Notes under the pieces: generated by a model
Databases searched by the model: none
The model's input: the letters and a program-made list of their open reading frames with translations, nothing else
Told to the model about the DNA's origin: nothing
Made by a program: the position numbers and the translations under genes
Assembly: GCF_029210365.1 (NCBI RefSeq)
Contig: NZ_JARGES010000027.1
Span: 372,001 to 436,000, forward strand
Direction: 5' to 3'
Source: Mesorhizobium sp. YIM 152430
GTDB taxonomy: Bacteria; Pseudomonadota; Alphaproteobacteria; Rhizobiales; Rhizobiaceae
Length of the DNA stretch: 64,000 nt
Shown: piece after piece, positions 891 to 60,799 of the stretch
How the letters are laid out: every line of letters starts with the position of its first letter
Numbering within the stretch: the stretch's first letter is position 1

Positions 891-2195
891 ATGCTCGACA
901 TCAAATGGATTCGCGAAAAGCCCGAAGCGCTTTCCGCAGCACTCGTGAAGCGCGGCTGGTCGCAGGAAGAGGCCGCGGCCAAGGTCGGGGAAATCATCGG
1001 CCATGACGAGGCCCGCCGCGCCCATCTCGTCGCGCTTCAGGAAAAGCAGGAACGCCGCAATGCCGCGTCGAAGGAAATCGGCAACGCCATGCGCTCCGGC
1101 GACATGGAGCTTGCCGAGCGCCTGAAGGCCGAGGTGGCCGACATCAAGATCTTCGTCCAGAACGGCGAGGCGACCGAGCGCGAGTTCGACCGGCAGATGA
1201 GCGATGCGCTTGCCGTCCTGCCCAACATCCCGCTCGACGACGTGCCCCTCGGAAAGGATGAGCACGACAATGTCGAGGTCCGGCGGATCGGCGATCCGAG
1301 GCCGAAGGCCAACTGGACGCGCGAGCATTTCGAAATCGGCGAAGCGCTCGGCGAGATGGATTTCGAGCGCGCGGCGAAGCTTTCGGGCTCGCGCTTTACG
1401 GTGCTCTCCGGGCAGATCGCGAGGCTGGAGCGCGCGCTCGGCCAGTTCATGCTCGACCTGCACACGGGCGAACACGGATATACGGAAATGCAGGTGCCGT
1501 TGCTCGTGAAGGACGATGCGCTGTTCGGGACCAACCAGCTTCCCAAATTCGAGGAAGACCTTTTCTTCGCCAGACATGGCGAGAGCAGGCTCGGCCTCAT
1601 CCCCACCGCCGAAGTCTCGCTCACCAACATGGTCCGCGAGGAGATCGTCGCGAACGACCGTCTCCCGCTGCGCCTGACGGCGCTGACGCCGTGCTTCCGC
1701 TCGGAAGCGGGTTCGGCCGGACGCGACACGCGCGGCATGTTGCGCCAGCATCAGTTCTACAAGGTCGAACTCGTCTCGATCACCGCGCCGGAGGACTCGA
1801 TCGCCGAGCACGAACGGATGACGGGCTGCGCCGAGGAAGTGCTCAAGCGCCTCGACCTGCCGTTCCGCACCGTGACGCTTTGCACCGGCGACATGGGCTT
1901 CGGCGCGCGCAAGACCTACGACATCGAGGTCTGGCTGCCGGGCCAGAACGCCTATCGCGAGATTTCGTCCTGCTCGGTTTGCGGCGATTTCCAGGCGCGG
2001 CGCATGAACGCGCGCTATCGCCGCGCGGACGGCAAGGGCACCGGCTTCGTCCATACGCTGAACGGCTCGGGCGTCGCGGTCGGCCGCGCATTGATCGCCG
2101 TGATGGAAAATTACCAGAACGAGGACGGCAGCGTCACAGTCCCGCAAGCCTTGCGGCCCTATATGGGCGGGCTGGAAAAGATCGGCACCAGATAA
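891..2195 (+). CDS. serS: Seryl-tRNA synthetase
   Basis: This enzyme charges tRNA-Ser and tRNA-Sec with serine. The 434-residue protein has the N-terminal coiled-coil arm (about residues 28-105) that contacts the tRNA long variable arm. The class II catalytic core follows: TAEVSLTNM, motif 2 with [15 protein letters not shown] and HQFYKVELV, and motif 3 [19 protein letters not shown]. The start was set at [14 protein letters not shown], the family's usual N-terminus. An upstream in-frame ATG at 852 would add 13 unconserved residues. It lies between tatC and surE on one strand, the usual order in Rhizobiales. Confidence 0.97.
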
Positions 2196-2207
2196 GGGAG
2201 ACTAGCC

Positions 2208-2969
2208 TTGCGCATTCTGCTCACCAATGACGACGGCATCCACGCCGAAGGCTTGAAGGTTCTGGAGCGGATTGCCCGGCAACTCTCCGACGATGTCTGG
2301 GTGGTGGCGCCGGAGACCGACCAGTCGGGCTTCGCCCATTCGCTGTCCCTGTCCGAGCCGCTGCGGATGCGCAAGATTTCCGACCGGCATTTCGCCGTGC
2401 GCGGCACGCCGACCGACTGCGTCATCATGGGCGTGCGCGAAATCCTGCCCGAACCGCCGGACCTCATTCTTTCCGGCGTCAATTCCGGCTCCAACGTCGC
2501 CGACGACGTGACCTATTCGGGCACGGTCGCGGGCGCAATGGAGGGAACGTTGCTCGGCATTGCCTCCATCGCGCTCAGCCAGGGCTACAACGTGACCGAG
2601 GAAGGCCGCACCCTGCACTGGGAAACGGCCGAAAGACACGCGCCTGCGGTCCTGACGAAAATGCTCGACGCCGCCATTCCGGCCGATATCTTCCTCAATA
2701 TCAATTTCCCGAACTGTCCTGCCGGCGAGGTCAAGGGCACGCGCGTCACCGGACAGGGCAAGCGTGTCCACGGCCTCTGGCTCGACAAGCGCAAGGACGG
2801 GCGCGGCTTCCCCTATTACTGGCTGCGATTCGGCCGCGAGCCTTCCGAAATTCGCGAAGGCACCGACCTGGCCGCCTTGCGGGACAATTACATCTCGATC
2901 ACCCCGCTCCATCTCGACCTGACCGCCAACGAGATCAAGGATCAGCTTGCAAAGGCGCTCGCGTCATGA
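2208..2969 (+). CDS. surE: 5'/3'-nucleotidase SurE
   Basis: SurE is a metal-dependent nucleoside monophosphate phosphatase linked to stationary-phase survival. The 253-residue protein begins at a TTG codon and carries the signature [16 protein letters not shown], where the Asp pair (residues 8-9) ligates the metal. The conserved DQSGFAHS and [18 protein letters not shown] segments follow. An AGGGAG stretch precedes the TTG. The gene ends 4 bases inside pcm (ATGA overlap). This surE-pcm coupling is widespread in proteobacteria and suggests joint translation. Confidence 0.95.
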
Positions 2970-3616
2970 CGGACCAGGTCGAGCGCGAAGGCTTTGCCGC
3001 ATTTCTCCTGCGCGCCCGCGCGCTGGGAATCACCGGCCGCGAACTGATCGCCGCGATCGAGGCGACGCCCCGGCAGGGTTTCGTTCCGAACCAGTGGCAG
3101 GCCGACGCCTGGTCGAAACGCCATGTTCCGATCGAATGCGGCGAGGCGATCGAGGGCATCGACCTTCAGGCGCAGTGCCTGGCGGCGCTTAATGTCCAGC
3201 CCGGCCAGCGCGTCTGCGAAATCGGCACCGGTTCGGGCTATACGGCGGCGATCCTCGGCCGCATCGCGGGCAGGGTACTTTCGCTGGAACGCTACAGGAC
3301 GCTCGCCGAACTGGCGCAGGGCCGGATCGAGACCCTGGCGCTCCAGAACGTCGTCGTGCGCCATGCGGACGGACTTTCGGGCATCAGTGCCGAAGGTCCG
3401 TTCGACCGCATCATCGCCTGGTGCGCCTTCGACGCCATGCCGCGCCATTTCGTCGACCAGCTCTCGAGCAACGGCATCATGATCGCCGCGATCGGTCCAG
3501 CCGAGGACGAGCAGGCGCTTGCACGGCTGACCAAGGTCGGCAGCCGCTTCGAGCGCGAGGATATCGGCCGTGTCCGATTCCAGCCGATCGTCAGGGGACT
3601 GGCGTCCGTCATCTGA
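2966..3616 (+). CDS. pcm: Protein-L-isoaspartate O-methyltransferase
   Basis: Pcm repairs isomerised aspartyl residues in aged proteins using S-adenosylmethionine. The 216-residue protein has the SAM-binding motif I ([14 protein letters not shown], near residue 77) and the family segment for substrate approach around MPRHFVDQL. It overlaps surE by 4 bases. The order serS-surE-pcm-nlpD matches other Rhizobiales. The next gene begins about 100 bases downstream and probably has its own transcription or translation signals. Confidence 0.93.
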
Positions 3617-3719
3617 TTTCCGCTGAAATGCCACGATTATGCCGCCGAATTTAACCGTGCAGTAAGATTAACGCGCTTTAATCCAGATCAATCGGTATCG
3701 GGTAATTGCGGGTTCTGCC

Positions 3720-5015
3720 ATGTGCTTCGGCCTTTCTCATCAGACGCGACGGATTCTCCTGCGCAGCGCCGCAATCGCGGTGGTTGGCGGTCTGGCTGCC
3801 GGCTGCAGCTCGAACGTCCAGCGCTTCCAGGATTCACTCTTCACCGGATCTTCGAACAGCACGGCTGCGGTCGCGCCGGTTTCCCAGCCTTATCCGGGAG
3901 ACGTCAGGCAGGTTGCCGGCGTCGACCAGACCTACACCGGCTCCGTCGCCCGCAATGGCACGCGCGGCGCTCCGGTCCCGGCGGCGACCGTCGGCGGCGG
4001 TCAGCTCGTCTATCAGGCACAGCAGCAACCGGTCTACCAGCAGCAGCCGGTCTACGCGAACCAGGGCGTCGCCGCCTCGCCGGTGGGCCGTTCGACGCTT
4101 GCGCCGCCCTCGGGTAGCCAGATGGCGGCCGCCCCGCAAGTCAACCAGCCGGCGCCCATTCAGCCGACGTCGAACGCGCTGCCATCGCCATCGCCTTCGC
4201 AGCCCCAGCCGCAGCAGCCCAGCCAGACGCAGGTCGCGGTGTTGCCGCAGACCCCGAAGGTGGGCGATGCCGGTCAGGCGCAGCAGCCGCAGACGGCTCC
4301 CGCCCCTGGGGCCTCGGGCGGAACGAGCTACACGGTCGTCTCCGGTGACACGCTTTCGGCGATCTCGCGCCGCACCGGCGTATCGGCCGACGCGATCAAA
4401 CGTGCGAACAATCTCGACAGCGGACTGATCCGCATCGGACAGACGCTCACGATTCCTGGCGGCTCAGGCCAGGCGACGACGCAGGTGGCGAGCGCCGCGC
4501 CCAAGCCCGATCCGGTCGTCACCAGCGGAACGGTTGCCCCGCAAAAGCCGGCCGAAACCGCGCAACCGCAGGCGGTCGCCTACGCTCCGGCGCAATCGGT
4601 CGAATCCGCCGTCAAGGACGGCGCGGCCGTCGCGCCCGGCTCGACCGGCGTCGGCAAGATGCGCTGGCCGGTCCGCGGCCGCGTCATCTCGAATTTCGGT
4701 TCCGCGCAGAGCGGCGACGGCATCGATATCTCCGTCCCGAGCGGCACGCCGGTAATGGCTGCCGAAAACGGCGTCGTGATCTATGCCGGAGACGGTCTCA
4801 AGGAGTTCGGCAACACGGTTCTGGTCCGCCATGACGATGGGCTCGTGACCGTCTACGGCCATGCCAGCGACCTGAAGGTGGCGCGCGGCGAGAAAGTGAC
4901 GCGCGGTCAGCAGATCGCGACATCCGGCATGAGCGGCAATGCGCAGGCGCCTAAGTTGCGCTTCGAGGTCCGCAAGGACTCCGCGCCCGTCAACCCGGCA
5001 GCCTATCTGGAATAG
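3720..5015 (+). CDS. nlpD: NlpD-like lipoprotein with LysM and degenerate M23/LytM domain
   Basis: This is a 431-residue envelope lipoprotein, probably a divisome-linked activator of peptidoglycan amidases. A signal peptide ends in a lipobox GLAAGC, with Cys29 as the lipidation site. It is followed by a long Pro/Gln/Ala-rich linker with a QQQPVYQQQPVY repeat. One LysM domain spans residues 204-246 (TVVSGDTLSAISRRTG). A LytM fold fills about residues 312-431. The catalytic His of the HxxxD motif is replaced (SGDGIDI) and the final HxH is KLRFEV, so the peptidase site appears dead, as in E. coli NlpD. It follows surE-pcm. Function by homology only. Confidence 0.85.
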   Translation: MCFGLSHQTRRILLRSAAIAVVGGLAAGCSSNVQRFQDSLFTGSSNSTAAVAPVSQPYPGDVRQVAGVDQTYTGSVARNGTRGAPVPAATVGGGQLVYQAQQQPVYQQQPVYANQGVAASPVGRSTLAPPSGSQMAAAPQVNQPAPIQPTSNALPSPSPSQPQPQQPSQTQVAVLPQTPKVGDAGQAQQPQTAPAPGASGGTSYTVVSGDTLSAISRRTGVSADAIKRANNLDSGLIRIGQTLTIPGGSGQATTQVASAAPKPDPVVTSGTVAPQKPAETAQPQAVAYAPAQSVESAVKDGAAVAPGSTGVGKMRWPVRGRVISNFGSAQSGDGIDISVPSGTPVMAAENGVVIYAGDGLKEFGNTVLVRHDDGLVTVYGHASDLKVARGEKVTRGQQIATSGMSGNAQAPKLRFEVRKDSAPVNPAAYLE

Positions 5016-5124
5016 CCGGGCAATGATTTGGCCACATTTGTGCGGTGCGAGGTACAGACGCCTCGCCGCACGGAGCGGCCGGCGTTCGACGCTGCCTGTT
5101 TAGTCTCCAGTCCAGGATCGCGTC

Positions 5125-5150
5125 TGCCCGTCCCGCTTGCGGGGCGGGCA
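5125..5150. terminator. GC-rich hairpin between convergent genes
   Basis: Arms at 5125-5136 and 5139-5150 pair over 12 positions with one mismatch. The hairpin sits between the 3' ends of the NlpD-like gene and the DUF815 ATPase gene. There is no T-run on either side, so an intrinsic terminator is only a suggestion. Nothing else is evident in the 5016-5164 gap. Confidence 0.4.
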
Positions 5151-5164
5151 ATCTGCATTGCGCG

Positions 5165-6025
5165 TCAAAGGCTGCGGCCCAGCCGGCCCGCCAGGTCCTG
5201 CGTGAACTGCCACGCCACGCGGCCCGAGCGCGCGCCGCGCGTCGTCGCCCATTCGAGCGCGTCCCGGTGAAGCTCCTCCCGCGGCACGTCCAGCACGAAA
5301 TGCGCGGCGTATCCGTCGATCATCGCCAGATAGTCGTCCTGCGAGCATTTGTGGAAGCCGAGCCAGAGGCCGAAGCGGTCGGACAGCGACACCTTCTCTT
5401 CCACCGCTTCGGACGGATTGATGGCGGTCGACCGCTCATTGTCGATCATGTCTCGGGGCAGGAGGTGGCGACGATTCGACGTCGCGTAGAAGACGACATT
5501 GTCCGGCCGGCCCTCGACGCCCCCTTCGAGCGCGGCCTTGAGCGATTTGTAGGAGGTATCGTCGTGGTCGAAGGAGAGGTCGTCGCAAAACAGGATGAAG
5601 CGGTAGGGCGTGTCCTTCAGGAGGCCGAGCAGCCGGGGCAGGGTGCCAATGTCCTCGCGGTGGATCTCGATCAGTTTCAGGCCGGGCTCACGCGCTGCGG
5701 CTTCGGCGTGAGCGGCCTTGACGAGCGAGGACTTGCCCATGCCGCGCGCGCCCCACAGGAGGACGTTGTTGGCTGCATGGCCCGCCGCGAAGCGTTGCGT
5801 GTTTTCCAGAAGGATGTCGCGGACGCGGTCGACGCCCTTGATCAGCCCGATGTCGACGCGGCTGACCTTCGCGACAGGATCGAGAGCGAGTTCCTCGGCG
5901 TTCCACACGAAGCAACCGGCTGCGTCGAACGCGGGCACGGCGACCTGGCGCGGCCCCATGCGTTCGAGGGCTTCGGCGACGCGGTCGAGTTGCGTCATCA
6001 GGCGGGCGACGTCAGGACGATCCAA
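5165..6025 (-). CDS. DUF815-family AAA ATPase
   Basis: A 286-residue soluble P-loop ATPase of the DUF815 family, whose cellular role is not established. Visible features are Walker A (GARGMGKSS), Walker B (FILFCDDLSF), a sensor-like ATSNRRHLLPRDM and an arginine-containing SDRFGLWLGF segment. The start was set at a TTG at 6025 because an AAGGAAG ribosome binding site lies 6-8 bases upstream. An ATG at 5998 is the alternative. The longer reading frame to 6220 lacks family-like sequence. The gene is divergent from yajC. Confidence 0.82.
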   Translation of the reverse strand: MDRPDVARLMTQLDRVAEALERMGPRQVAVPAFDAAGCFVWNAEELALDPVAKVSRVDIGLIKGVDRVRDILLENTQRFAAGHAANNVLLWGARGMGKSSLVKAAHAEAAAREPGLKLIEIHREDIGTLPRLLGLLKDTPYRFILFCDDLSFDHDDTSYKSLKAALEGGVEGRPDNVVFYATSNRRHLLPRDMIDNERSTAINPSEAVEEKVSLSDRFGLWLGFHKCSQDDYLAMIDGYAAHFVLDVPREELHRDALEWATTRGARSGRVAWQFTQDLAGRLGRSL

Positions 6026-6111
6026 CTTGCTCTTCCTTAGGCTTTTGCGATGCTGCGGCTCTATCACGCAGGCACGCGAGCGCAAAGCGGTGTAACGGGC
6101 GGCAACAAGAG

Positions 6112-6139
6112 TTGCATTGATGGCCTTAGCGACTATATT
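6112..6139 (+). promoter_or_regulatory. Putative sigma70-type promoter for yajC
   Basis: TTGCAT at 6112-6117 and TATATT at 6134-6139 are separated by 16 bases. They lie 63 bases before the yajC start in the divergent gap with the DUF815 gene. Both hexamers are close to consensus. No transcription start is known. Confidence 0.55.
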
Positions 6140-6153
6140 CGCGCCGATTTCAC

Positions 6154-6174
6154 GGGACCGCGCCATGCGGTCCC
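6154..6174 (+). promoter_or_regulatory. Perfect hairpin in the yajC 5' leader
   Basis: GGGACCGC (6154-6161) and GCGGTCCC (6167-6174) form a perfect 8-bp stem with a 5-base loop. It lies between the predicted promoter and the AGGAG ribosome binding site (6191-6195) of yajC. The bases after it (TTCGCGTATTTTC) are only mildly T-rich. It could be a leader stabiliser, an attenuator or a protein-binding element; the sequence does not decide. Confidence 0.4.
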
Positions 6175-6201
6175 TTCGCGTATTTTCACCAGGAGCAAAC
6201 G

Positions 6202-6540
6202 ATGTTCGTGACCCCCGCATATGCGCAGGCAGCCGGCGGCGCCCCCGACATTTTCGTCAGCATTCTTCCCTTCCTCCTGATCTTCGTGATCATGTATTTT
6301 CTGATCATCCGCCCGCAGCGGACCCAGTTGAAGAAGCGTACGGAAATGCTCTCCGCCATTCGCCGCGGCGATACGGTCGTCACCGGCGGCGGCCTGATCG
6401 GCAAGGTCACCAAGGTGATCGACGACAATGAACTCGAAATCGATCTCGGCAACGGTCTCAAGGTCACGTCTCTTCGCTCGATGATCGCGGATGTGCGCGT
6501 CAAGGGTGAACCCGTCGCCAACCAGAATGCCAAGAAGTAG
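6202..6540 (+). CDS. yajC: Preprotein translocase subunit YajC
   Basis: YajC is a small single-span inner membrane protein that associates with SecDF and the Sec holotranslocon. The 112-residue product has one transmembrane helix (about residues 14-36, ending FLIIRPQRTQ). A basic, soluble domain with RRGDTVVTGGGLIGKV follows, the family signature. An AGGAG site lies 6 bases before the ATG. secDF follows on the same strand after 153 bases. Confidence 0.95.
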   Translation: MFVTPAYAQAAGGAPDIFVSILPFLLIFVIMYFLIIRPQRTQLKKRTEMLSAIRRGDTVVTGGGLIGKVTKVIDDNELEIDLGNGLKVTSLRSMIADVRVKGEPVANQNAKK

Positions 6541-6550
6541 TCGCAATTGG

Positions 6551-6573
6551 GGGCCATCGAGAACCGATGGTCC
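6551..6573 (+). other. Hairpin in the yajC-secDF gap
   Basis: GGGCCATCG (6551-6559) pairs with CGATGGTCC (6565-6573) with one G-U wobble and a 5-base loop, just after the yajC stop. A second short hairpin, CGGGGC/GCCCCG, lies at 6651-6668, near the secDF start. Neither has a T-run. They may stabilise or separate the two parts of the transcript. Confidence 0.3.
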
Positions 6574-6612
6574 CGGAGCGCCGCGCAACGCCCTGGCCGG
6601 ATCGCGCCGGAT

Positions 6613-6642
6613 TTGCTTCGATTGAACCGATAAGCCGATAAT
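6613..6642 (+). promoter_or_regulatory. Putative promoter for secDF
   Basis: TTGCTT (6613-6618) and GATAAT (6637-6642) are spaced by 18 bases and end 51 bases before the secDF ATG. This would give secDF transcription independent of yajC. It is based on hexamer similarity only. Confidence 0.4.
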
Positions 6643-6693
6643 GTGTGGCGCGGGGCGGCCAAGCCCCGTCGCAAAACCGCCCTACGAGGCCCA

Positions 6694-9249
6694 ATGCTTT
6701 ATTTTGCCCGCTGGAAAACGATCTCGATCTGGCTCGTGGTGCTGTTCGGCGTCATCTTCGCTCTGCCGAACATGGCTTCGCAGTCGACGCTCTCGGCATT
6801 GCCGGACTGGCTGCCCAAGCGCCAGATGACGCTCGGCCTCGATCTTCAAGGCGGCTCGCACATGCTGCTTCAGATCGATCGGCAGGGGCTGGCCGATGAT
6901 CGCCTCGAGGTCGTTCGCGACGACGTACGCACATCACTTCGCAATGCAGGCATCGGCTATACGGGCCTGACCGAAAGCGGCAGCACCGTTCAAGTGCGCG
7001 TGCGCGACGAAGCGCAGATCGAGGCTGCTCGCACGGCGCTCCAGACACTCGCCGAGCCCGTATCGTCGGGTCTTTTCGGCACCGGGGTGGTCACGGAAGT
7101 CGAACTGGCCGAGACGGAGCCTGGCCTCTTCCGGCTCTCGCTCAGCAATGAGGGCGTCGCCTACAGACTCAATTCCGCACTCAACCAGTCCATCGAAGTT
7201 GTTGGGCGGCGCGTGAACGAACTCGGCACGACTGAGCCGATCATTCAGCGTCAGGGCGAGGACCGCATACTCGTGCAGGTGCCGGGCCTTCAGGACCCTG
7301 AACGGCTGAAGGAGATCCTCGGCCAGACGGCGCAGCTCACCTTCCAGATGGTCGACCAGACCAATTCGGTGGAAGACGCGATTGAAGGGCGCCCGCCCGC
7401 GGGCACCCGCGTCCTTTATTCGACCGACGAGCCGCGTATTCCCTACCTGATCGAAAATCGCGTCATCGTGTCGGGTGAAAACCTCGTCGATGCACAGGCG
7501 ACGTTCGACCAGCGGACGAACGAGCCCGTCGTCTCCTTCCGCTTCGACAATCAGGGTGCGACGCGATTCGGCCAGGCGACGCAGCAGAATGTCGGCCGTC
7601 CCTTCGCCATCATCCTTGACGGGGAGGTGATCTCGGCGCCGCGCATTAACGAGCCGATCCTCGGCGGCTCGGGTCAGATTTCGGGCAACTTCACCGTGCA
7701 GGGCGCAAACGATCTTGCCGTCCTGCTGCGCGCCGGCGCGCTGCCGGCCGATCTGACGATCATCGAGGAGCGCACCGTCGGTCCGAGCCTCGGCCAGGAT
7801 TCGATCGAGGCCGGCCAGATCGCCTCGCTTCTCGCGGGCTTTCTCGTCCTGGCCTTCATGATCGTCGCCTATGGCAAGCTCGGCATCATTGCGAATATCG
7901 CATTGATCGCCAATCTCGCCATGATCGTCGCGATCCTTTCAACGCTCGGCGCCACGCTGACGTTGCCGGGCATTGCCGGCATCGTGCTGACCATGGGTAT
8001 GGCGGTCGATTCGAACGTCATCATCTTCGAACGCGTGCGTGAAGAGCGCCGGCAGGGACGCTCCCTCGTCCAATCGCTCGATTCGGGCTTCCAGCGTGCG
8101 CTGTCCACCGTCATCGACGCCAATCTGACAACCTTCATCGCGGCGTCGATCCTGTTCTTCCTCGGCTCCGGCCCGGTGCGCGGCTTTGCCGTCACGCTCG
8201 CGATCGGCATCATCACCACCGTCTTCACCGCCTACACGCTGACGCGCTGGCTCATCGCCTGGTGGCTGCGCCGGCAGCGCCCGACCGAAATGCCGGCGGG
8301 CGCGGTGGGATACATTCCCAGCGACACCAAAGTCCCCTTCATGAAGTTCCGCAATTGGGGCTTTGCGATTTCGGGGGCGCTCACTGTCGCCGCCATTGCC
8401 CTGTTCTTCACCGTGAACATGAATTACGGCATCGATTTCCGAGGCGGTTCGGCTATCGAGGTGCAATCACGCGAAGGGCCGGCCGATGCCGGCGACGTTC
8501 GCGGACGACTGACCGCCCTGGACCTCGGCGAGGTCCAGGTGCAGGAATTCGGCAGCCCCAACGAGCTTCTGATCCGCATCGGCACGCAGGACGCCCAGAG
8601 TGACACCGCCGAGCAGGCCGCCGTCCAGCAGGTTCGAAGCGTTCTCGAAGCGGATTACGAGTTCCGCCGAGTCGAGATCGTCGGCCCGACCATCTCGAGC
8701 GAACTTGCACGCAATGGCACGATCGCGGTGATCGTCGCGATGCTGGCAATGCTGGTCTATATCTGGCTGCGCTTCGAATGGCAGTTCGCCGTCGGGGCCA
8801 TCGTCTCGACGCTGCATGACGTGATCATGCTGATCGGCTTCTACGTGCTGCTGGGGCTCGAATTCAACCTGACGAGTATCGCCGCCGTGCTGACCGTCGT
8901 CGGCTATTCGATCAACGATACGGTCGTCGTCTACGACCGTGTGCGGGAAAATCTGCGGCGTTTCAAGAAGATGCCCATCGCCGACATTCTCGATCTGTCG
9001 CTGAACCAGACCCTGTCGCGCACGATCCTGACCGGCGTGACGACGTTGCTTGCCCTGTTTGCCCTCTATCTCTTCGGCGGCGAGGTCATCGCATCGTTCA
9101 CCATCGCCATGATCATCGGCATTCTGATCGGCACTTATTCCTCGGTGTTCGTTGCGGGACCGCTGCTGATCCTGTTCAACCTTCGTCCGGCGAAGGTCGA
9201 GAAGGACGAAGCAGCCGACGCCCCGCCGGTCCAGCCAAGCCAGGCCTGA
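6694..9249 (+). CDS. secDF: Fused protein translocase SecDF
   Basis: SecD and SecF use the proton motive force to help pull exported proteins through SecYEG. Here both are in one 851-residue protein. The SecD half has LGLDLQGGSHMLLQID near the first helix, the periplasmic P1 region and GMAVDSNVIIFERVREE. The SecF half begins around residue 550 with NYGIDFRGGSAIEV and has GYSINDTVVVYDRVREN. Twelve membrane helices are expected. The start at MLYFARWKTI follows a GAGG site; an ATG at 6643 would add unconserved residues. The Mth938 gene starts 7 bases after the stop, so an operon is likely. Confidence 0.96.
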   Translation: MLYFARWKTISIWLVVLFGVIFALPNMASQSTLSALPDWLPKRQMTLGLDLQGGSHMLLQIDRQGLADDRLEVVRDDVRTSLRNAGIGYTGLTESGSTVQVRVRDEAQIEAARTALQTLAEPVSSGLFGTGVVTEVELAETEPGLFRLSLSNEGVAYRLNSALNQSIEVVGRRVNELGTTEPIIQRQGEDRILVQVPGLQDPERLKEILGQTAQLTFQMVDQTNSVEDAIEGRPPAGTRVLYSTDEPRIPYLIENRVIVSGENLVDAQATFDQRTNEPVVSFRFDNQGATRFGQATQQNVGRPFAIILDGEVISAPRINEPILGGSGQISGNFTVQGANDLAVLLRAGALPADLTIIEERTVGPSLGQDSIEAGQIASLLAGFLVLAFMIVAYGKLGIIANIALIANLAMIVAILSTLGATLTLPGIAGIVLTMGMAVDSNVIIFERVREERRQGRSLVQSLDSGFQRALSTVIDANLTTFIAASILFFLGSGPVRGFAVTLAIGIITTVFTAYTLTRWLIAWWLRRQRPTEMPAGAVGYIPSDTKVPFMKFRNWGFAISGALTVAAIALFFTVNMNYGIDFRGGSAIEVQSREGPADAGDVRGRLTALDLGEVQVQEFGSPNELLIRIGTQDAQSDTAEQAAVQQVRSVLEADYEFRRVEIVGPTISSELARNGTIAVIVAMLAMLVYIWLRFEWQFAVGAIVSTLHDVIMLIGFYVLLGLEFNLTSIAAVLTVVGYSINDTVVVYDRVRENLRRFKKMPIADILDLSLNQTLSRTILTGVTTLLALFALYLFGGEVIASFTIAMIIGILIGTYSSVFVAGPLLILFNLRPAKVEKDEAADAPPVQPSQA

Positions 9250-54592: not shown

Positions 54593-54746
54593 GACACAAT
54601 CCTGCCCGGTTCCAAACACAATCGATTAATACGCAGCTAAACAATTCGTGCGATCCACAGGATTGCTCGACTGTGGACGCAGGCAACACGTCCAAATAGA
54701 TTTTGGCTGCGCATATACGTCGCATTGGGGATCGGGGACACGAGAT

Positions 54747-55958
54747 ATGGCCGAACTTGGGCGCCGCAGGACGAAGACGCTTGGCTCTCTCCTGCTTGTG
54801 ACCTGTGGCGCAGCTGTGCTGGCCGCCTGTTCGTCCGGCCCATCCCAGGTCGCAAGCGACAAGCCGAAGCGCTCCAAGGAATATTTCGCCGAGTCCGAAT
54901 ATGGCGTGAAGGCCAGCCCCCGCGTCTCGACCCTTGCCACGAACCTGCCGCGCGGCGGCGGTCGTGATCAGGTTGGCCGGCCCTACAAGGTGCGCGGCCA
55001 ATGGTACACGCCGAAGGAAGATCCGAACTACCGCAGTTCGGGTCTGGCAAGCTGGTATGGCGATGCCTTTCATGGCCGCCTGACCGCCAATGGCGAAGTC
55101 TACGACAAGACCCACCTGACGGCGGCACATCCGACCATGCCATTGCCCAGCTATGCTCGGGTCACGAACAAGAAGAACGGACACTCCGTCATCGTGCGGG
55201 TCAACGATCGCGGGCCCTTCGCCAAGGGGCGCGTGATCGACCTGTCGCAGCGGGCGGCCGAAATGCTCGACTACAAGAACAGCGGCGTCGCGCAGGTTGC
55301 CGTCGAATATGTAGGGCGGGCGCCGTTGCACGGTCTCGACGATCAGTTCCTTTTGGCGTCCTATCGCCCCGGCGGCGCGGCGCCGAATCCATCGAATGAC
55401 GGCCTGCCGACCGGCGTGATGATCGCCATGAACGGCACGACGCCAACCGCGCCAGTTCCCGCCAGCCCGACGCCTCAGGCGGTTCCCTTCCCCGGTCAAT
55501 TGACGGCAACACCGGCTTCGGATGGCCATATCGTCCTTCCCGACGTGGCACCGATCGCGCCGGCACGACCGCCGGTCACGCTTGCATCGGTAAATGGCGC
55601 CTCCAGTCTCCTCCTGTCTTATGCGGACGAGCGGATCAGCGCGGCCAGCGCGGTGTCGAGCTTCGGCGCACACCGGCTCGACGCCGATGCCGTCATCGCG
55701 TCCTTTGCCCGCACCAGCGCGGCGCGCGAGGGAACCGGCGCGCCGGGCTACGTCAATGCCGGCACGTTCGCCTCGAAGGTCGAGGCCCTGACCATCGCAT
55801 CGCGCTTCAGCGACTTGGCACAGGCGCAAATCGAGACGGACCCGTCGGGCCAGTGGTTCGCGATCAGCGTCGAGCAGAACGGCGGCGCCACACTCGACCA
55901 GATCCTGCGTCATGCATGGGCGAATGGCGCACCCGAAGCCATGATCATACGCGACTGA
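54747..55958 (+). CDS. RlpA-family septal-ring lipoprotein with DPBB and SPOR-like domains
   Basis: A 403-residue lipoprotein of the RlpA family; some members cleave naked glycan at division sites. The lipobox is VLAAC (Cys28 from the ATG at 54747). A double-psi beta-barrel follows, with SGLASWYGDAFHGRLTANGE, THLTAAHPTMPLPSYARVTN and RVNDRGPFAKGRVIDLS, where the Asp of NDRGPF is the usual catalytic residue. A Pro/Ala-rich linker leads to a C-terminal SPOR-like region (NAGTFASKVEALTIASRFSD). An ATG at 54648 would add unconserved sequence. Confidence 0.88.
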   Translation: MAELGRRRTKTLGSLLLVTCGAAVLAACSSGPSQVASDKPKRSKEYFAESEYGVKASPRVSTLATNLPRGGGRDQVGRPYKVRGQWYTPKEDPNYRSSGLASWYGDAFHGRLTANGEVYDKTHLTAAHPTMPLPSYARVTNKKNGHSVIVRVNDRGPFAKGRVIDLSQRAAEMLDYKNSGVAQVAVEYVGRAPLHGLDDQFLLASYRPGGAAPNPSNDGLPTGVMIAMNGTTPTAPVPASPTPQAVPFPGQLTATPASDGHIVLPDVAPIAPARPPVTLASVNGASSLLLSYADERISAASAVSSFGAHRLDADAVIASFARTSAAREGTGAPGYVNAGTFASKVEALTIASRFSDLAQAQIETDPSGQWFAISVEQNGGATLDQILRHAWANGAPEAMIIRD

Positions 55959-55979
55959 TCGCTTTTCATTGCAACCCGG

Positions 55980-56002
55980 AACGCATCGTGATGCGATGCG
56001 TT
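55980..56002 (+). terminator. Hairpin after the RlpA-like gene
   Basis: AACGCATCG (55980-55988) and CGATGCGTT (55994-56002) form a perfect 9-bp stem with a TGATG loop, 22 bases after the stop. The tail AGACTTCGTG is not T-rich. It probably helps separate this gene from the Anbu operon that follows. Confidence 0.5.
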
Positions 56003-56152
56003 AGACTTCGTGTTGCTGCTCGAAATTGAACCAGTCTGCACGCAGATCGGTCAGATGGCAGCACGAGACTGTCAATCGGGGAGCTCCATCATTTCAAACA
56101 CTTGCTTTTTTCGTGTCGAAGCTTTCGAATGCGGCGATAGGGGAGTTGTCGC

Positions 56153-57565
56153 GTGGTAGCCTTCGACGAAATGCGCCCGGAAAGCGCCGGGCTTCGCAAC
56201 CCATACTCCGAATATGACAACTGGCTAAGCGAGCAGGACACCGCACGCCTCGGCCAGAAAATGAAGGATGCCGAAAACGTCTTTCGCCGCACCGGCATCA
56301 CCTTCGCCGTCTATGGCGAGCAGAACGCCGCCGAGCGCCTGATTCCCTTCGACATAGTTCCGCGCATTCTCGCCGGCGCAGAATGGCGGCGGTTGACGCA
56401 GGGCATCGAACAGCGCGTCCAGGCGCTGAACGCCTTCCTCGAAGACATCTACCACCGCCAGGAAATTCTTCGGGCAGGACGCATCCCGCGCGAATTGATC
56501 GCCGGCAATGTGGCGTTTCTGCCCGAGATGATCGGCGTGCGCCCGCCGGCAGGCGTCTATACGCACATCATCGGCACGGACATCGTGCGCACGGGCGAGA
56601 ACGAATTCTACGTGCTCGAGGACAATGCGCGCACACCGTCGGGCGTGTCCTACATGATCGAGAACCGCGAGACGATGATGCAGCTCTTCCCCGAGTTGTT
56701 CAAACGCATCAAGGTCCGCCCCGTCGAGAACTACCCGCAACTGCTGCGCCAGTCACTGGCCGCAGTCGCCCCGCGCTCGGCTGACGAGCAGCCGACCATC
56801 GCCGTGCTGACGCCCGGCAGCTTCAACTCGGCCTATTTCGAGCACGCCTTCCTGGCCGACCATATGGGCGTGGAACTCGTCGAGGGGCAGGATCTGCGCG
56901 TCGTCGACGGCCATGTCGCCATGCGCACGACGGAAGGTTACAAGCGCATCGACGTGCTCTATCGCCGGGTTGACGACGATTTCCTCGATCCGCTGACCTT
57001 CAATCCGGACTCCATTCTGGGTGTTCCGGGCATCATGGATGTCTACCGCGCCGGCAACATCACAATCGCCAATGCGCCGGGCACCGGAATCGCCGACGAC
57101 AAGGCGATCTATTCCTACATGCCCGAGATCGTCGAGTTCTACACAGGCCGCAAGGCGATCCTCGGCAACATCCCGACCTGGCGCTGTTCCGAGGCAGACA
57201 GCCTCGCCTATGTTCTCGAACATCTGTCCGAACTCGTCGTCAAGGAAGTGCATGGGTCGGGCGGTTACGGGATGCTGGTCGGACCGGCCGCCTCGAAAAA
57301 GGAGCGGGAGGCGTTCGCCGACAAGCTTCGTGCGCGACCGGGCAACTATATCGCCCAGCCGACGCTTGCCCTTTCGACCTGCCCGATTCTGACCGACGCG
57401 GGCCTTGCTCCCCGACACGTCGACTTGCGACCCTTCGTGCTCGTGTCGGACCGGATTCGCATCGTTCCCGGCGGGCTGACGCGTGTCGCCCTCAAGCCCG
57501 GCTCCCTCGTGGTCAATTCTTCGCAAGGAGGCGGCACGAAGGACACCTGGGTTCTGGACGACTAG
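56153..57565 (+). CDS. Circularly permuted type 2 ATP-grasp protein (Anbu operon)
   Basis: A 470-residue ATP-grasp enzyme of the circularly permuted type 2 (COG2308) family, predicted to form an amide bond from a carboxylate using ATP. Visible family blocks are RLIPFDIVPRILAGAEWRRL, GVYTHIIGTDIVRTG, YVLEDNARTPSGVSYM, LVVKEVHGSGGYGMLVGP and RIVPGGLTRVAL. The start is GTG at 56153, preceded by GGGGAG 7-12 bases upstream. It is the first gene of a four-gene operon; the alpha-E gene starts 9 bases after its stop. The acceptor and donor substrates are unknown. Confidence 0.93.
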   Translation: MVAFDEMRPESAGLRNPYSEYDNWLSEQDTARLGQKMKDAENVFRRTGITFAVYGEQNAAERLIPFDIVPRILAGAEWRRLTQGIEQRVQALNAFLEDIYHRQEILRAGRIPRELIAGNVAFLPEMIGVRPPAGVYTHIIGTDIVRTGENEFYVLEDNARTPSGVSYMIENRETMMQLFPELFKRIKVRPVENYPQLLRQSLAAVAPRSADEQPTIAVLTPGSFNSAYFEHAFLADHMGVELVEGQDLRVVDGHVAMRTTEGYKRIDVLYRRVDDDFLDPLTFNPDSILGVPGIMDVYRAGNITIANAPGTGIADDKAIYSYMPEIVEFYTGRKAILGNIPTWRCSEADSLAYVLEHLSELVVKEVHGSGGYGMLVGPAASKKEREAFADKLRARPGNYIAQPTLALSTCPILTDAGLAPRHVDLRPFVLVSDRIRIVPGGLTRVALKPGSLVVNSSQGGGTKDTWVLDD

Positions 57566-57574
57566 GGGGAACGA

Positions 57575-58516
57575 ATGCTGCTCGGACGAACCGCCAACGG
57601 CCTTTACTGGATGGCCCGCTACATCGAGCGGGCCGAGAACATGGCACGCCTCGTAGATGCGGGGCTGCGCATGGCGCTGACACGCAACGAAGGGGACGTC
57701 GAGGAATGGACCTCGGTCATCGTGTCGAGCGGCGTCGAGGCCGGGTACCGGCAAAAACACGGCGAATTCAACGCCGCCAATGTCTGCGACTATCTCCTGC
57801 GCGACACGGAGAACGGCTCGAGCGTGCTGTCGTCGATTGAGACCGCACGGTCGAATGCCCGAATGGTTCGCACTGCGCTCACACGCGAGACATGGGAGAG
57901 CATCAACGATGCCTGGATGTCGTTTCGCCGGATGCTTGCAGCGCCCATCGACGAGCGCGAGGTGCCGAAGGTCCTCGACGCCATCAAGCGTGAGACGGCG
58001 CAGATTCGCGGCGCCTTCCAGGGGACGATGCTGCGCAACGAGATCTACGATTTCTGCCAGCTCGGCCTCTATGTCGAGCGCGCCGACAACACCGCCCGCA
58101 TCCTCGACGTCAAATACTACGTCCTCCTGCCGTCGATCTCTTGGGTCGGCTCGTCGATGGACAATTATCAGTGGGAGTCCATCCTGCGCTCGGTTTCGGC
58201 GCACCGATCCTACCGCTGGGTGTACGACGCAGCCTACAAGCCGACCAACATCGCCGAGTTTCTCATCCTGTCGCGCCGGATGCCCCGCTCGCTCGCCTTT
58301 TGCTACCGCATGATCGACGAGAGCCTGGAGGGCCTTGCCAACGACTACGGCAACCGGCACGCCTCGCATGAGATGTGCGAGAACACTCTGGCCCGAATGA
58401 AACGGATGACGATCAAGGACGTGCTGGACGAGGGGCTTCACGAATACCTGACCGACTTCCTCATCCGCACCAACAATCTGGGCGACCAGGTTGCGCGCGA
58501 CTACAGGTTCTTCTGA
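57575..58516 (+). CDS. Alpha-E domain protein (Anbu operon)
   Basis: A 313-residue helical protein of the alpha-E (COG2307) family. The family opening MLLGRTANGLYWMARYIERAENMARLV (quoted as ANGLYWMARYIERAENMAR) is present, with conserved Glu/Arg pairs such as LGLYVERADNTARILD and FLILSRRMPRSLAFCYRM. No enzymatic activity is established. It nearly always accompanies the CP-ATP-grasp and transglutaminase-like genes, and is presumed to assist or regulate them. The gene sits 9 bases after the ATP-grasp gene and ends 1 base before the next start. Confidence 0.93.
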   Translation: MLLGRTANGLYWMARYIERAENMARLVDAGLRMALTRNEGDVEEWTSVIVSSGVEAGYRQKHGEFNAANVCDYLLRDTENGSSVLSSIETARSNARMVRTALTRETWESINDAWMSFRRMLAAPIDEREVPKVLDAIKRETAQIRGAFQGTMLRNEIYDFCQLGLYVERADNTARILDVKYYVLLPSISWVGSSMDNYQWESILRSVSAHRSYRWVYDAAYKPTNIAEFLILSRRMPRSLAFCYRMIDESLEGLANDYGNRHASHEMCENTLARMKRMTIKDVLDEGLHEYLTDFLIRTNNLGDQVARDYRFF

Positions 58517-58517
58517 G

Positions 58518-59312
58518 ATGCTGCTCAACATCGTTCACCAGACGACCTACCGATACGACCAGAGCCTGCCCTATGCCTTGCAGCGTGTGCGCCTGATTCC
58601 GCGGACCGACGCGCTCCAGACCGTCGATCGCTGGGATCTTTCATACGAAGGCGCGCGCGAGGAGGTTCGTTTCGTCGATCATTTCGGCAACCAGTGCCGG
58701 CTCCTGAGCACCGAACCCGGCGCCATGCAGATCGTCATCACCGCAAGGGGCCAGGTGACGACACGCGACCAGACCGGCGTCGCCGGCCAGCACGCCGGTT
58801 TCGCGCCTCTGTGGCTGTTCGAACGTGAGACGCCGCTGACGATGCCGTCCGCCGCAATCAGCACCCTGTCCGAACCGCTTGGCGGTCAGGAAACTCTGGG
58901 GCTGTTGCACGACCTGATGGACACGATCCAGAAGCGGGTCGCATACGTTTCAGGGTCGACCACGTCCGAAACGACGGCCGACGAGGCGCTGGCGGCGGGG
59001 CAGGGTGTATGCCAGGACCACGCCCATATCTTCATTTCCGCGGTGCGCGCGCAGGGCCTGCCGGCCCGCTATGTCAGCGGCTACCTGATGATGGATAACA
59101 CGACCCAGCAGGTCGCCACCCACGCCTGGGCCGAGGCGCATGTACCGGGTCTCGGCTGGGTGGGATTCGACGTCTCCAATGGCATCTGCCCGGACGAGCG
59201 CTATGTCCGCGTCGCATTCGGCCGCGACTATCGCGACGCCATGCCGGTTGCCGGAATCCGTCAGGGACAAGCGCACGAACAGCTTGAAGTCCATGTGACC
59301 GTCGAGCAGTAA
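58518..59312 (+). CDS. Transglutaminase-like protein (Anbu operon)
   Basis: A 264-residue protein of the COG1305 transglutaminase-like family. The N-terminal beta-domain is NIVHQTTYRYDQSLPYALQR. The thiol catalytic domain has a complete triad: Cys165 (GQGVCQDHAH), His202 (THAWAEA) and Asp218 (GFDVS). This suggests peptide cleavage or transfer. It starts 1 base after the alpha-E stop, hence tight coupling. The partner gene is Anbu, 34 bases downstream. Confidence 0.93.
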   Translation: MLLNIVHQTTYRYDQSLPYALQRVRLIPRTDALQTVDRWDLSYEGAREEVRFVDHFGNQCRLLSTEPGAMQIVITARGQVTTRDQTGVAGQHAGFAPLWLFERETPLTMPSAAISTLSEPLGGQETLGLLHDLMDTIQKRVAYVSGSTTSETTADEALAAGQGVCQDHAHIFISAVRAQGLPARYVSGYLMMDNTTQQVATHAWAEAHVPGLGWVGFDVSNGICPDERYVRVAFGRDYRDAMPVAGIRQGQAHEQLEVHVTVEQ

Positions 59313-59346
59313 TCGCCAGTACGCAGTTTACGCGGGCAGCGATTCG

Positions 59347-60075
59347 ATGACCTATTGCGTTGGCCTCAAGATCGATCGGGGGCTCGTCTTCATGTCCGAC
59401 ACGCGGACGAATGCGGGCATCGACAGCATTTCGACGTTCAGAAAGATGACGGTGTGGAAGAAGGACGGCGAGCGCGTCATCGTCCTTCTCTCGGCCGGCA
59501 ATCTGGCGACGACCCAGTCCGTCGTCAGCCTGCTCGACGAACGCTCCAAGGCACATGCGGACCGGGCTCCGTCCATCCTCGAGACGCCATCGATGTTTCA
59601 GACCGCACGCCTCGTCGGCGACACGGTCAAGGAGGTCATCTCGAACTCGGCGCCGGTCGGCCAGCGTGCGGACGCCTTCGGAGCGTCCTTCATTCTGGGC
59701 GGTCAGATGAAGGGCTCGGAGCCACGCCTTTTCATGATCTATCCGGAAGGCAATTTCATCGAGGCATCCGACGACACGCCGTTCTTCCAGATCGGAGAGA
59801 CCAAATACGGCAAGCCGATTCTCGTTCGGGCTTACGATCCGCAAATGACATTCGCCGAGACCGCAAAGCTCTTGATGGTGTCGTTCGACTCTACGTTGAA
59901 GTCGAACCTGTCTGTCGGTCTTCCGCTCGATATGCTGTTTCTGGCGCGCGACACCTACAGGATCGAACTGCAAAGGCGCATCGGAGGGGATGACCCCTAT
60001 TACCGGCAGATTTCGGAGGGTTGGTCAGACGCGCTGCGCAATGCGTTCAAGAGCCTGCCTGATTTTCCCGGATAG
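59347..60075 (+). CDS. Proteasome-related peptidase Anbu
   Basis: A 242-residue Ntn-hydrolase of the Anbu (COG3484) family, an ancestor-like relative of proteasome beta subunits. After removal of Met1 the chain would begin with Thr (TYCVGLKIDRGLVF). Asp18 (MSDTRTN) and Lys33 (FRKMTVW) lie where the proteasomal Asp17 and Lys33 sit, so the active site looks intact. There is no propeptide, as in other Anbu proteins. Family studies report ring-like oligomers, but substrates are unknown. It is the last gene of the operon. A weak AGGCG/CGCCT hairpin follows at 60083-60100. Confidence 0.94.
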   Translation: MTYCVGLKIDRGLVFMSDTRTNAGIDSISTFRKMTVWKKDGERVIVLLSAGNLATTQSVVSLLDERSKAHADRAPSILETPSMFQTARLVGDTVKEVISNSAPVGQRADAFGASFILGGQMKGSEPRLFMIYPEGNFIEASDDTPFFQIGETKYGKPILVRAYDPQMTFAETAKLLMVSFDSTLKSNLSVGLPLDMLFLARDTYRIELQRRIGGDDPYYRQISEGWSDALRNAFKSLPDFPG

Positions 60076-60130: not shown

Positions 60131-60685
60131 TCAGTAGTAGGGCGAGCGGCACTCACGACGCGGCCCGTTATAGGGCTGGAACGTATTGTCCGACGCGCGA
60201 TATGAACGATAGCGATCATAGCACCACTGCACATGCGCGCTGCTATAGCCGCGATAACGCACCCGCGGTGCAGGCTGGGATGCAATCGCACCTCCGACGA
60301 TCGCGCCCGTTATGAACGCCGCAGCCGGATACCAGAAGCCGTCGTTGTAGCGCCGATATCCCGGCCGGTAGTCGCGATAGCCGCGATACCCACGGTAATA
60401 TCCGCCGCGGTCACGACGGGCAAAGCGCCGATCGTCGCGATAGTAGCGACCGGAACGATCCCAGCGACGATCGATCCGCCGCTCCACATTGCCGGCCCAT
60501 GGGCTGAACTGACGGTCGGGATTGACACTGCGGAACGATCCTGGAAACTGACCCTGGTTGGTTTGAACCTGCTGGACTGCGGACGGAACCGACGTTTCGA
60601 CGCGCGGCAATGCCGACGCGTTGCCCGTCATGCCGAGCGGCAGCGCCATAGCAAGCGCGATGAAACCGGACATGATCTTCTTCAT
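60131..60685 (-). CDS. BA14K-family secreted protein
   Basis: A 184-residue exported protein of the BA14K family, named after a Brucella immunoreactive lectin-like antigen. It has a signal peptide ([21 protein letters not shown]) and a low-complexity Arg/Tyr/Gly tract ([20 protein letters not shown]). A membrane-prone stretch ([16 protein letters not shown]) follows, and the BA14K motif [34 protein letters not shown] ends the protein, quoted in part as [19 protein letters not shown]. The start is at MKKIMSGF, after a strong GGAGGT site 4 bases upstream. It stands alone, divergent in direction from the Anbu operon. Confidence 0.9.
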
Positions 60686-60799
60686 GGCGACCTCCGAATT
60701 GATCTCGAACATATGTCCCTTTGTCACGAAATGAAATGACGCGACGTAAGTTCCGGCATAGCTGGGCGAAAACGGGCGGGTGCGATCAAAACCCGGTGA

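Follow-up and report, generated by a model that had tools for sequence, protein, structure and literature searches.

What does Anbu, a proteasome beta-like Ntn hydrolase, cut, and why is its gene carried beside that of a predicted ligase? The question is raised by a stretch of 64,000 nucleotides from Mesorhizobium sp. YIM 152430 (contig NZ_JARGES010000027.1, positions 372,001 to 436,000), here referred to in its entirety as the window. Within it lie four adjacent genes:

56153..57565, + strand: CP-ATP-grasp, a predicted amide ligase of 470 amino acids with a GTG start (identified by Pfam and PDB 3n6x)
57575..58516, + strand: Alpha-E protein, 313 amino acids, predicted all-helical (Pfam PF04168)
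58518..59312, + strand: transglutaminase-like protein, 264 amino acids from the ATG (Pfam PF01841 and PF08379)
59347..60075, + strand: Anbu, 242 amino acids (PDB 5loy, 5nyj, and 5nyf)

The Anbu operon was reportedly described by Iyer et al. in 2009. Comparing the window genes with those of related genomes, we arrive at a reading that we hold with about even confidence: the operon would pair an ATP-dependent amide ligase (the ATP-grasp, likely working with Alpha-E) with an Anbu that likely cuts the bond, or the product, that the ligase makes. Anbu is nearly always accompanied by an ATP-grasp, whereas some operons have no transglutaminase-like gene, or one whose product is without the catalytic cysteine; at its core, the system thus probably consists of two enzymes, one making and one cutting the same bond. 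What is added here is this comparative hierarchy of operon parts, in which the transglutaminase-like enzyme is dispensable and ATP-grasp and Anbu can occur alone, and which did not appear in the openly accessible literature passages.

The four window genes are, by family, order, strand, and spacing, the published Anbu operon in a new host, with the same genes and catalytic residues and no essential difference (PMC6376114 and PMC5666114). The operon being already in print, its presence here is not a new finding, and the co-occurrence that the original prediction called known has indeed been published, as has the idea of tagging (PMC6376114 and PMC5666114). The predicted layout, with gaps of 9, 1, and 34 bases on one strand, agrees with the list of open reading frames (ORFs); the mechanical ORF of the transglutaminase-like gene begins at a TTG at 58491, and we used the ATG at 58518. 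The family identities were equally sound, since each of the four genes has a Pfam match: CP_ATPgrasp_2 (PF14403; E value of 3.7e-167) and CP_ATPgrasp_1 (4.1e-149) for the ATP-grasp, PF04168 (3.9e-93) for Alpha-E, Transglut_core (1.2e-21) and Bact_transglu_N (1.2e-17) for the transglutaminase-like protein, and Proteasome (1.9e-08) for Anbu. In NCBIfam, Anbu matched archaeal proteasome models alone, far under the cut-off, and the other three proteins had no match. Two of the proteins also match solved structures in PDB. The ATP-grasp aligns over nearly its full length with 3n6x (1.3e-200), the closest solved ATP-grasp, whose PDB entry names it a putative glutathionylspermidine synthase. The alignment of Anbu to solved Anbu chains is likewise almost full-length (5loy at 2.9e-91, also 5nyj and 5nyf); five solved Anbu sequences, including a designed protein, give scores of 214 to 308 bits. 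The host is close to Aliihoeflea, and the window Alpha-E shares 99% identity with its counterpart in Aliihoeflea sp. 2WW.

To evaluate the association of Anbu with its partners, we used a class sample of 289 genomes, of which 93 matched the window Anbu as query and in which profile searches found Alpha-E in 120 and CP_ATPgrasp_2 in 124, and a phylum sample of 397 genomes, with Anbu in 161 and Alpha-E in 232. Fused copies from a second type of module, described below, are counted in the ATP-grasp and Alpha-E totals. In the class sample, the ATP-grasp family was present in all 93 Anbu genomes and Alpha-E in 90 of them; in the phylum sample, Alpha-E was present in 158 of the 161. The reverse dependence is looser: in the class, 31 of the 124 genomes with ATP-grasp and 30 of the 120 with Alpha-E have no Anbu, and the same holds in the phylum for 74 of the 232 with Alpha-E. 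The three class exceptions without an Alpha-E match are G127, G216, and G285. In G127, both the Anbu locus and the ATP-grasp match run into contig ends. Two AT-rich stretches of 1.4-Mb genomes (L119 and L120) carry ATP-grasp and Anbu genes that diverge from one another, approximately 105 bases apart, with no Alpha-E or transglutaminase match in the locus, and whole-genome searches for Alpha-E were negative in G285 and G216; at an estimated completeness of 94%, the absence of Alpha-E from these two genomes is likely, not certain. Another genome of 1.3 Mb (L118) retains a very divergent Alpha-E after the ATP-grasp.

Gene order was assessed at 105 Anbu loci (6 from named genomes and 99 from the class sample), sorted by tblastn with the window proteins and counted as independent although several are close relatives. 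The four genes lie in the same order on one strand in 52 loci, which exceeds what chance would give. Eleven more have ATP-grasp and Alpha-E upstream but no transglutaminase in place, and we refer to these two groups together as the 63 operons. Of the remainder, 20 have no ATP-grasp or Alpha-E inside the fetched stretch (several are cut by contig ends, and in one, G053, the three partner genes lie approximately 8 kb upstream of Anbu), 17 hold divergent Anbus, and 5 are of other kinds. At 40 further loci, chosen by an Alpha-E match and including the genomes with divergent Anbus, ATP-grasp adjoins Alpha-E in every case.

The transglutaminase-like protein is lost, displaced, or altered in a minority of related operons. 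Searching the 11 loci without it in place, and only these, with the 52 transglutaminases as queries showed it to be missing from 10 of the 63 operons and displaced in 1 (L105); in the 11, the gap between Alpha-E and Anbu is 30 to 168 bases in 8, 280 and 311 bases in 2, and 3,487 bases in 1. Where all four genes are present, the transglutaminase gene is usually within 200 bases of Anbu (45 of 52 loci; widest gap, approximately 1.7 kb). The window protein has the Cys165, His202, and Asp218 that had been predicted from it. His202 and Asp218 are kept in all 52 four-gene loci and Cys165 in 49; inside these operons, the cysteine is replaced by Tyr (L060 and L087) or Pro (L063), with His and Asp retained. 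Because some relatives lose the gene or the cysteine, the transglutaminase-like protein is likely an accessory.

The original prediction had counted on Cys165 and Thr2 of Anbu going unsubstituted in related strains. This fails for Cys165, replaced in the three operons just named, and holds for Thr2, the first residue after Met, found in 105 of 105 Anbus. The other two predicted Anbu residues, Asp18 and Lys33, are likewise present in the window and occur in 104 and 105 of 105, respectively. These counts, set against those for Cys165, indicate that constraint is stronger on the Anbu catalytic residues than on the transglutaminase-like cysteine, which part of the family does without. The catalytic residues of Anbu-1 are given as Thr1, Asp17, and Lys32(33) of the mature protein (PMC6376114), and the window Anbu matches this set (T2, D18, and K33 counted from Met). 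The S1 pocket is formed by T20, F30, T48, L52, and S55 in Anbu-1 and by I20, A29, R46, and R50 in Anbu-2 (PMC5666114). At the Anbu-1 positions (Met as 0), the window protein has T, F, S, L, and T, three identical and two conservative; judged by these residues, it is of the Anbu-1 subtype. For Anbu homologues, dodecameric open-ring assembly, inhibitor binding, and a reactive threonine have been shown (PMC5666114).

The 17 divergent Anbus have Ile or Val at position 21, Ala (15) or Thr (2) at position 30, and an SGLRS-x-R motif; we call them Anbu-2 because their pocket resembles the Anbu-2 pocket of PMC5666114. Their genes lie away from the operon, and an adjacent ATP-grasp/Alpha-E pair occurs elsewhere in all 17 genomes; the stretches holding those pairs gave no match to the window transglutaminase in any of the 17. 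The Anbu-2 loci (L121 to L138 except L133) have a distinct neighbourhood: a phasin-like gene adjoins in 15 of 17, and clpS-clpA-like genes lie within approximately 2 kb in 10 of 17, whereas none of the 63 operon-linked Anbus has such neighbours (gene names were assigned by eye). Anbu is said in PMC5666114 to have no AAA+ neighbour. The proximity of Anbu-2 and clpA is possibly just conserved gene order, and for a partnership with ClpA, gene neighbourhood is the sole argument.

As to the ligase, 105 positions of the ATP-grasp are conserved in at least 97% of 113 standalone sequences, the window's included. Among the columns conserved to this degree are E156, N158, K364, G370, G371, G373, N455, and K463, all present in the window protein, and catalytic roles may be proposed for such near-invariant residues. 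An ATP-grasp homologue from Yersinia bercovieri releases phosphate from ATP (PMC6376114). The host genome has two CP_ATPgrasp_2 matches in total; outside the window, a second module is found:

L009 (G000:C10:247000-263000), 1992-8551: transglutaminase-DUF2126 protein, ATP-grasp/Alpha-E fusion, and second transglutaminase-like protein

Compared with the 113 standalone proteins, 45 fused ATP-grasps differ at many of the near-invariant positions, for example with Gly for E156 in 38, Arg for N158 in 45, Gly for K364 in 33, Ala for N455 in 42, and Ala for K463 in 43; the alignment of the two types is solid around 156-160 and uncertain around 364-378. From these replacements, the fused ATP-grasp domain would be catalytically dead, a predicted pseudo-ligase, and DUF2126, a putative amidoligase in Pfam, may have taken over the ligase role in the second module. 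If so, the window operon would hold the only complete CP-ATP-grasp of the host. Anbu-less modules such as L009 and Burkholderia cenocepacia I35_5080-83 (PMC5491218) share ATP-grasp, Alpha-E, and transglutaminase-like domains with the window operon; they differ in having no Anbu, and L009 differs further in its DUF2126 protein and its fused-type ATP-grasp with replaced residues.

Alpha-E is likely a partner subunit of the ATP-grasp, to which it is fused in the second module. A sequence search of PDB found no relative of it up to an E value of 1. An AlphaFold2 model is all-helical (pLDDT of 84.2), and in a structural search of PDB with Alpha-E no match stood out, which does not in itself establish a new fold. 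Across 111 standalone and 60 fused copies, 15 positions are conserved in both types; six of these are arginine, more than expected from the 33 arginines among 313 residues (hypergeometric P of 0.002, uncorrected). The AlphaFold2 model of a natural ATP-grasp/Alpha-E fusion (P0125; pLDDT of 79.5, pTM of 0.64) is too uncertain for an interface to be read from it.

Published expression data place relatives of the operon in the response to nitrogen. In Pseudomonas putida, the three partner genes of Anbu, PP_2686-2688, rise 11- to 15-fold in nitrogen-limited wild-type cells (PMC7801951), and PP_2685 and PP_2688 are up on nitrate versus ammonium (PMC8050072). The Anbu-less DUF404/407-DUF403-transglutaminase cluster I35_5080-83 of B. 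cenocepacia is dependent on NtrC and sigma-54 (PMC5491218), and PMC13207237 lists a predicted RpoN site for a CP_ATPgrasp_1 gene of Bradyrhizobium. We scanned upstream regions with a heuristic sigma-54 matrix and with the exact pattern TGGCAY-N5-TTGCW. The matrix score reached at least 12 in 15 of 63 upstream regions, versus 2.4% of shuffles, and in 5 of 40 ATP-grasp loci without a linked Anbu, versus 2.8% of shuffles. Of 62 operons, 11 have the exact pattern in the 200 bp upstream; over 1,309,424 strand-bases of these loci, it is found at one other place:

L079, L084, L085, L087, L088, L091, L092, L097, L098, L106, and L108: exact sigma-54 sites, 44 to 134 bases before the operon

These 11 sites belong to five genera, none of them the window's own, and no exact site was found in Aliihoeflea and Mesorhizobium relatives or in loci with 58 to 69% Anbu identity. 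In the window, the region to be considered is as follows:

55959..56152, + strand: upstream intergenic region, part of which is conserved among Aliihoeflea relatives (by alignment)

A sigma-70 consensus scan of this region gave no promoter-like match.

A mechanism can be proposed for the favored reading. The ATP-grasp would convert a carboxylate into an acyl phosphate and couple it with an amine; of this step, the release of phosphate from ATP is published, for the Y. bercovieri protein. Alpha-E, by its constant ATP-grasp neighbourhood and its conserved arginines, may hold or select an anionic substrate or intermediate. Hydrolysis of the ligase product would fall to Anbu, as suggested by the conservation of its catalytic residues and by its need for the ligase; the transglutaminase-like enzyme would serve as an accessory, either a transferase or a hydrolase. 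We suggest only tentatively, as a possibility on the doubtful side, a narrower form of this reading, in which Anbu is the dedicated eraser of the amide bond of the ATP-grasp, those two genes are the irreducible system, the pair is a nitrogen-starvation response in many proteobacteria (in some via sigma-54), and the other two proteins are additions to it, the transglutaminase-like one being in some cases a catalytically dead subunit. If the substrate of Anbu is the product of its partner ligase, there is a single reaction to look for, with the two-gene genomes and nitrogen-induced operons as guides to the place and the conditions. This would also have implications for the origin of the proteasome, from a product-specific amidase rather than a general protease.

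Several observations weigh against the maker-and-cutter interpretation. The class and phylum samples overlap, and their co-occurrence counts are without correction for relatedness. The ligase is often retained where Anbu has been lost, and its product therefore does not require Anbu. Three phylum genomes of one genus (L179, L180, and L181) have Anbu with no Alpha-E or ATP-grasp match genome-wide. Three Anbus showed no peptidase activity on three substrates, and pull-downs found no specific complex among the operon proteins (both PMC6376114); Fuchs et al. take inhibitor binding as support for a protease and consider a link with peptide synthesis less likely (PMC5666114). On the regulatory side, no sigma-54 pattern with one mismatch or fewer lies near the window operon, and the best matrix score there (6.2) is close to the mean of the shuffles for all loci (6.0); sigma-54 control of this operon is thus unsupported. 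In the P. putida rpoN mutant, PP_2686-2688 still rise 14- to 20-fold, which weakens sigma-54 as a general inducer, and PP_2685, the Anbu gene, changes 1.12-fold in the wild type, 4.81-fold in a relA/spoT mutant, and 1.45-fold in the rpoN mutant (PMC7801951). The expression data hence support nitrogen induction for relatives and do not support sigma-54 as the only route; nitrogen-starvation control of the unit is likely in some related lineages and is not visible in the window. In the passages found in openly accessible literature, no substrate is assigned to Anbu.

The original prediction read the gene order as a cycle in which a tag is made and then removed or degraded. The identities and residues it gave were correct, and a shared pathway finds support in the dependence of Anbu on its ligase; the cycle itself did not emerge. 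In all 7 same-family loci without Anbu that were fetched (11 such genomes were sampled), ATP-grasp, Alpha-E, and transglutaminase are kept in order, and the transglutaminase-like enzyme is itself absent or without its cysteine in part of the relatives. Nor did a tag gene appear beside the operons: among 1,787 tag-sized ORFs (20 to 120 amino acids) compared from 700 bp upstream to 1,500 bp downstream of the 63 operons and the window operon, none was conserved beyond five close loci, the window's included, and among larger neighbours, from naive ORF calling, no family other than the operon genes and antisense shadows occurred in more than 9 of 105 loci. A tag could be encoded elsewhere. We regard as rather unlikely a pupylation-like pathway in which the ligase marks proteins and Anbu degrades them, recycling amino acids in nitrogen starvation. 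Dedicated parts of the Pup-proteasome system are a protein tag, a Pup ligase, and an AAA+ unfoldase, and none of these is among the four genes. The two systems do have in common a ligase and a proteasome homologue, and loss of pup or proteasome genes worsens growth of Mycobacterium smegmatis under nitrogen limitation (PMC8223512); the proteasome fold and open-ring assembly of Anbu (PMC5666114) and the nitrogen induction in P. putida (PMC7801951 and PMC8050072) would fit such a role. The reported lack of peptidase activity (PMC6376114) does not, and together with the lack of a nearby tag gene, it inclines us slightly toward a specific amide over a tagged protein.

Another alternative is the metabolism of small-molecule conjugates. 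The ligase might attach a peptide or amino acid to an amine, with later release by Anbu or the transglutaminase-like enzyme, as a way of storing or salvaging nitrogen. Glutathionylspermidine synthetase/amidase couples an ATP-grasp ligase to an amide hydrolase in this way, as a single bifunctional protein with a thiol amidase; unlike the Anbu operon, it has no proteasome homologue. The annotation of 3n6x, the missing tag gene, and the joint changes of these genes with urea, nitrate, and putrescine genes (PMC5491218, PMC8050072, and PMC7801951) agree with conjugates of this kind, whereas a ring-forming proteasome homologue would be an odd small-molecule amidase, no product is known, and the window has no sigma-54 site; we consider them improbable to much the same degree as protein tagging. 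A distinctly remoter prospect is that Anbu is an independent protease, merely coregulated with an unrelated ligase module. The many ligase modules without Anbu, the 20 loci with no partner in the fetched stretch, the 17 divergent, unlinked Anbus, and the genus with Anbu alone could all be taken in this sense. They are countered by the ATP-grasp/Alpha-E pair that accompanies each of the 17 divergent, unlinked Anbus, the ATP-grasp present in each Anbu genome of the class, and the two reduced genomes that keep ATP-grasp and Anbu together.

Some neighbouring genes, all identified by eye, complete the description. In one same-family locus without Anbu (L183), a pyridoxal-phosphate-dependent decarboxylase-like gene (2605-4044) follows the transglutaminase at the place of Anbu. 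The Anbu neighbours in L180 look like response-regulator and other unrelated genes. Flanking the window operon are a SPOR/RlpA-like gene upstream (54648-55958, + strand) and, downstream, a gene for a small, Arg-rich, exported-looking protein (60131-60727, − strand).

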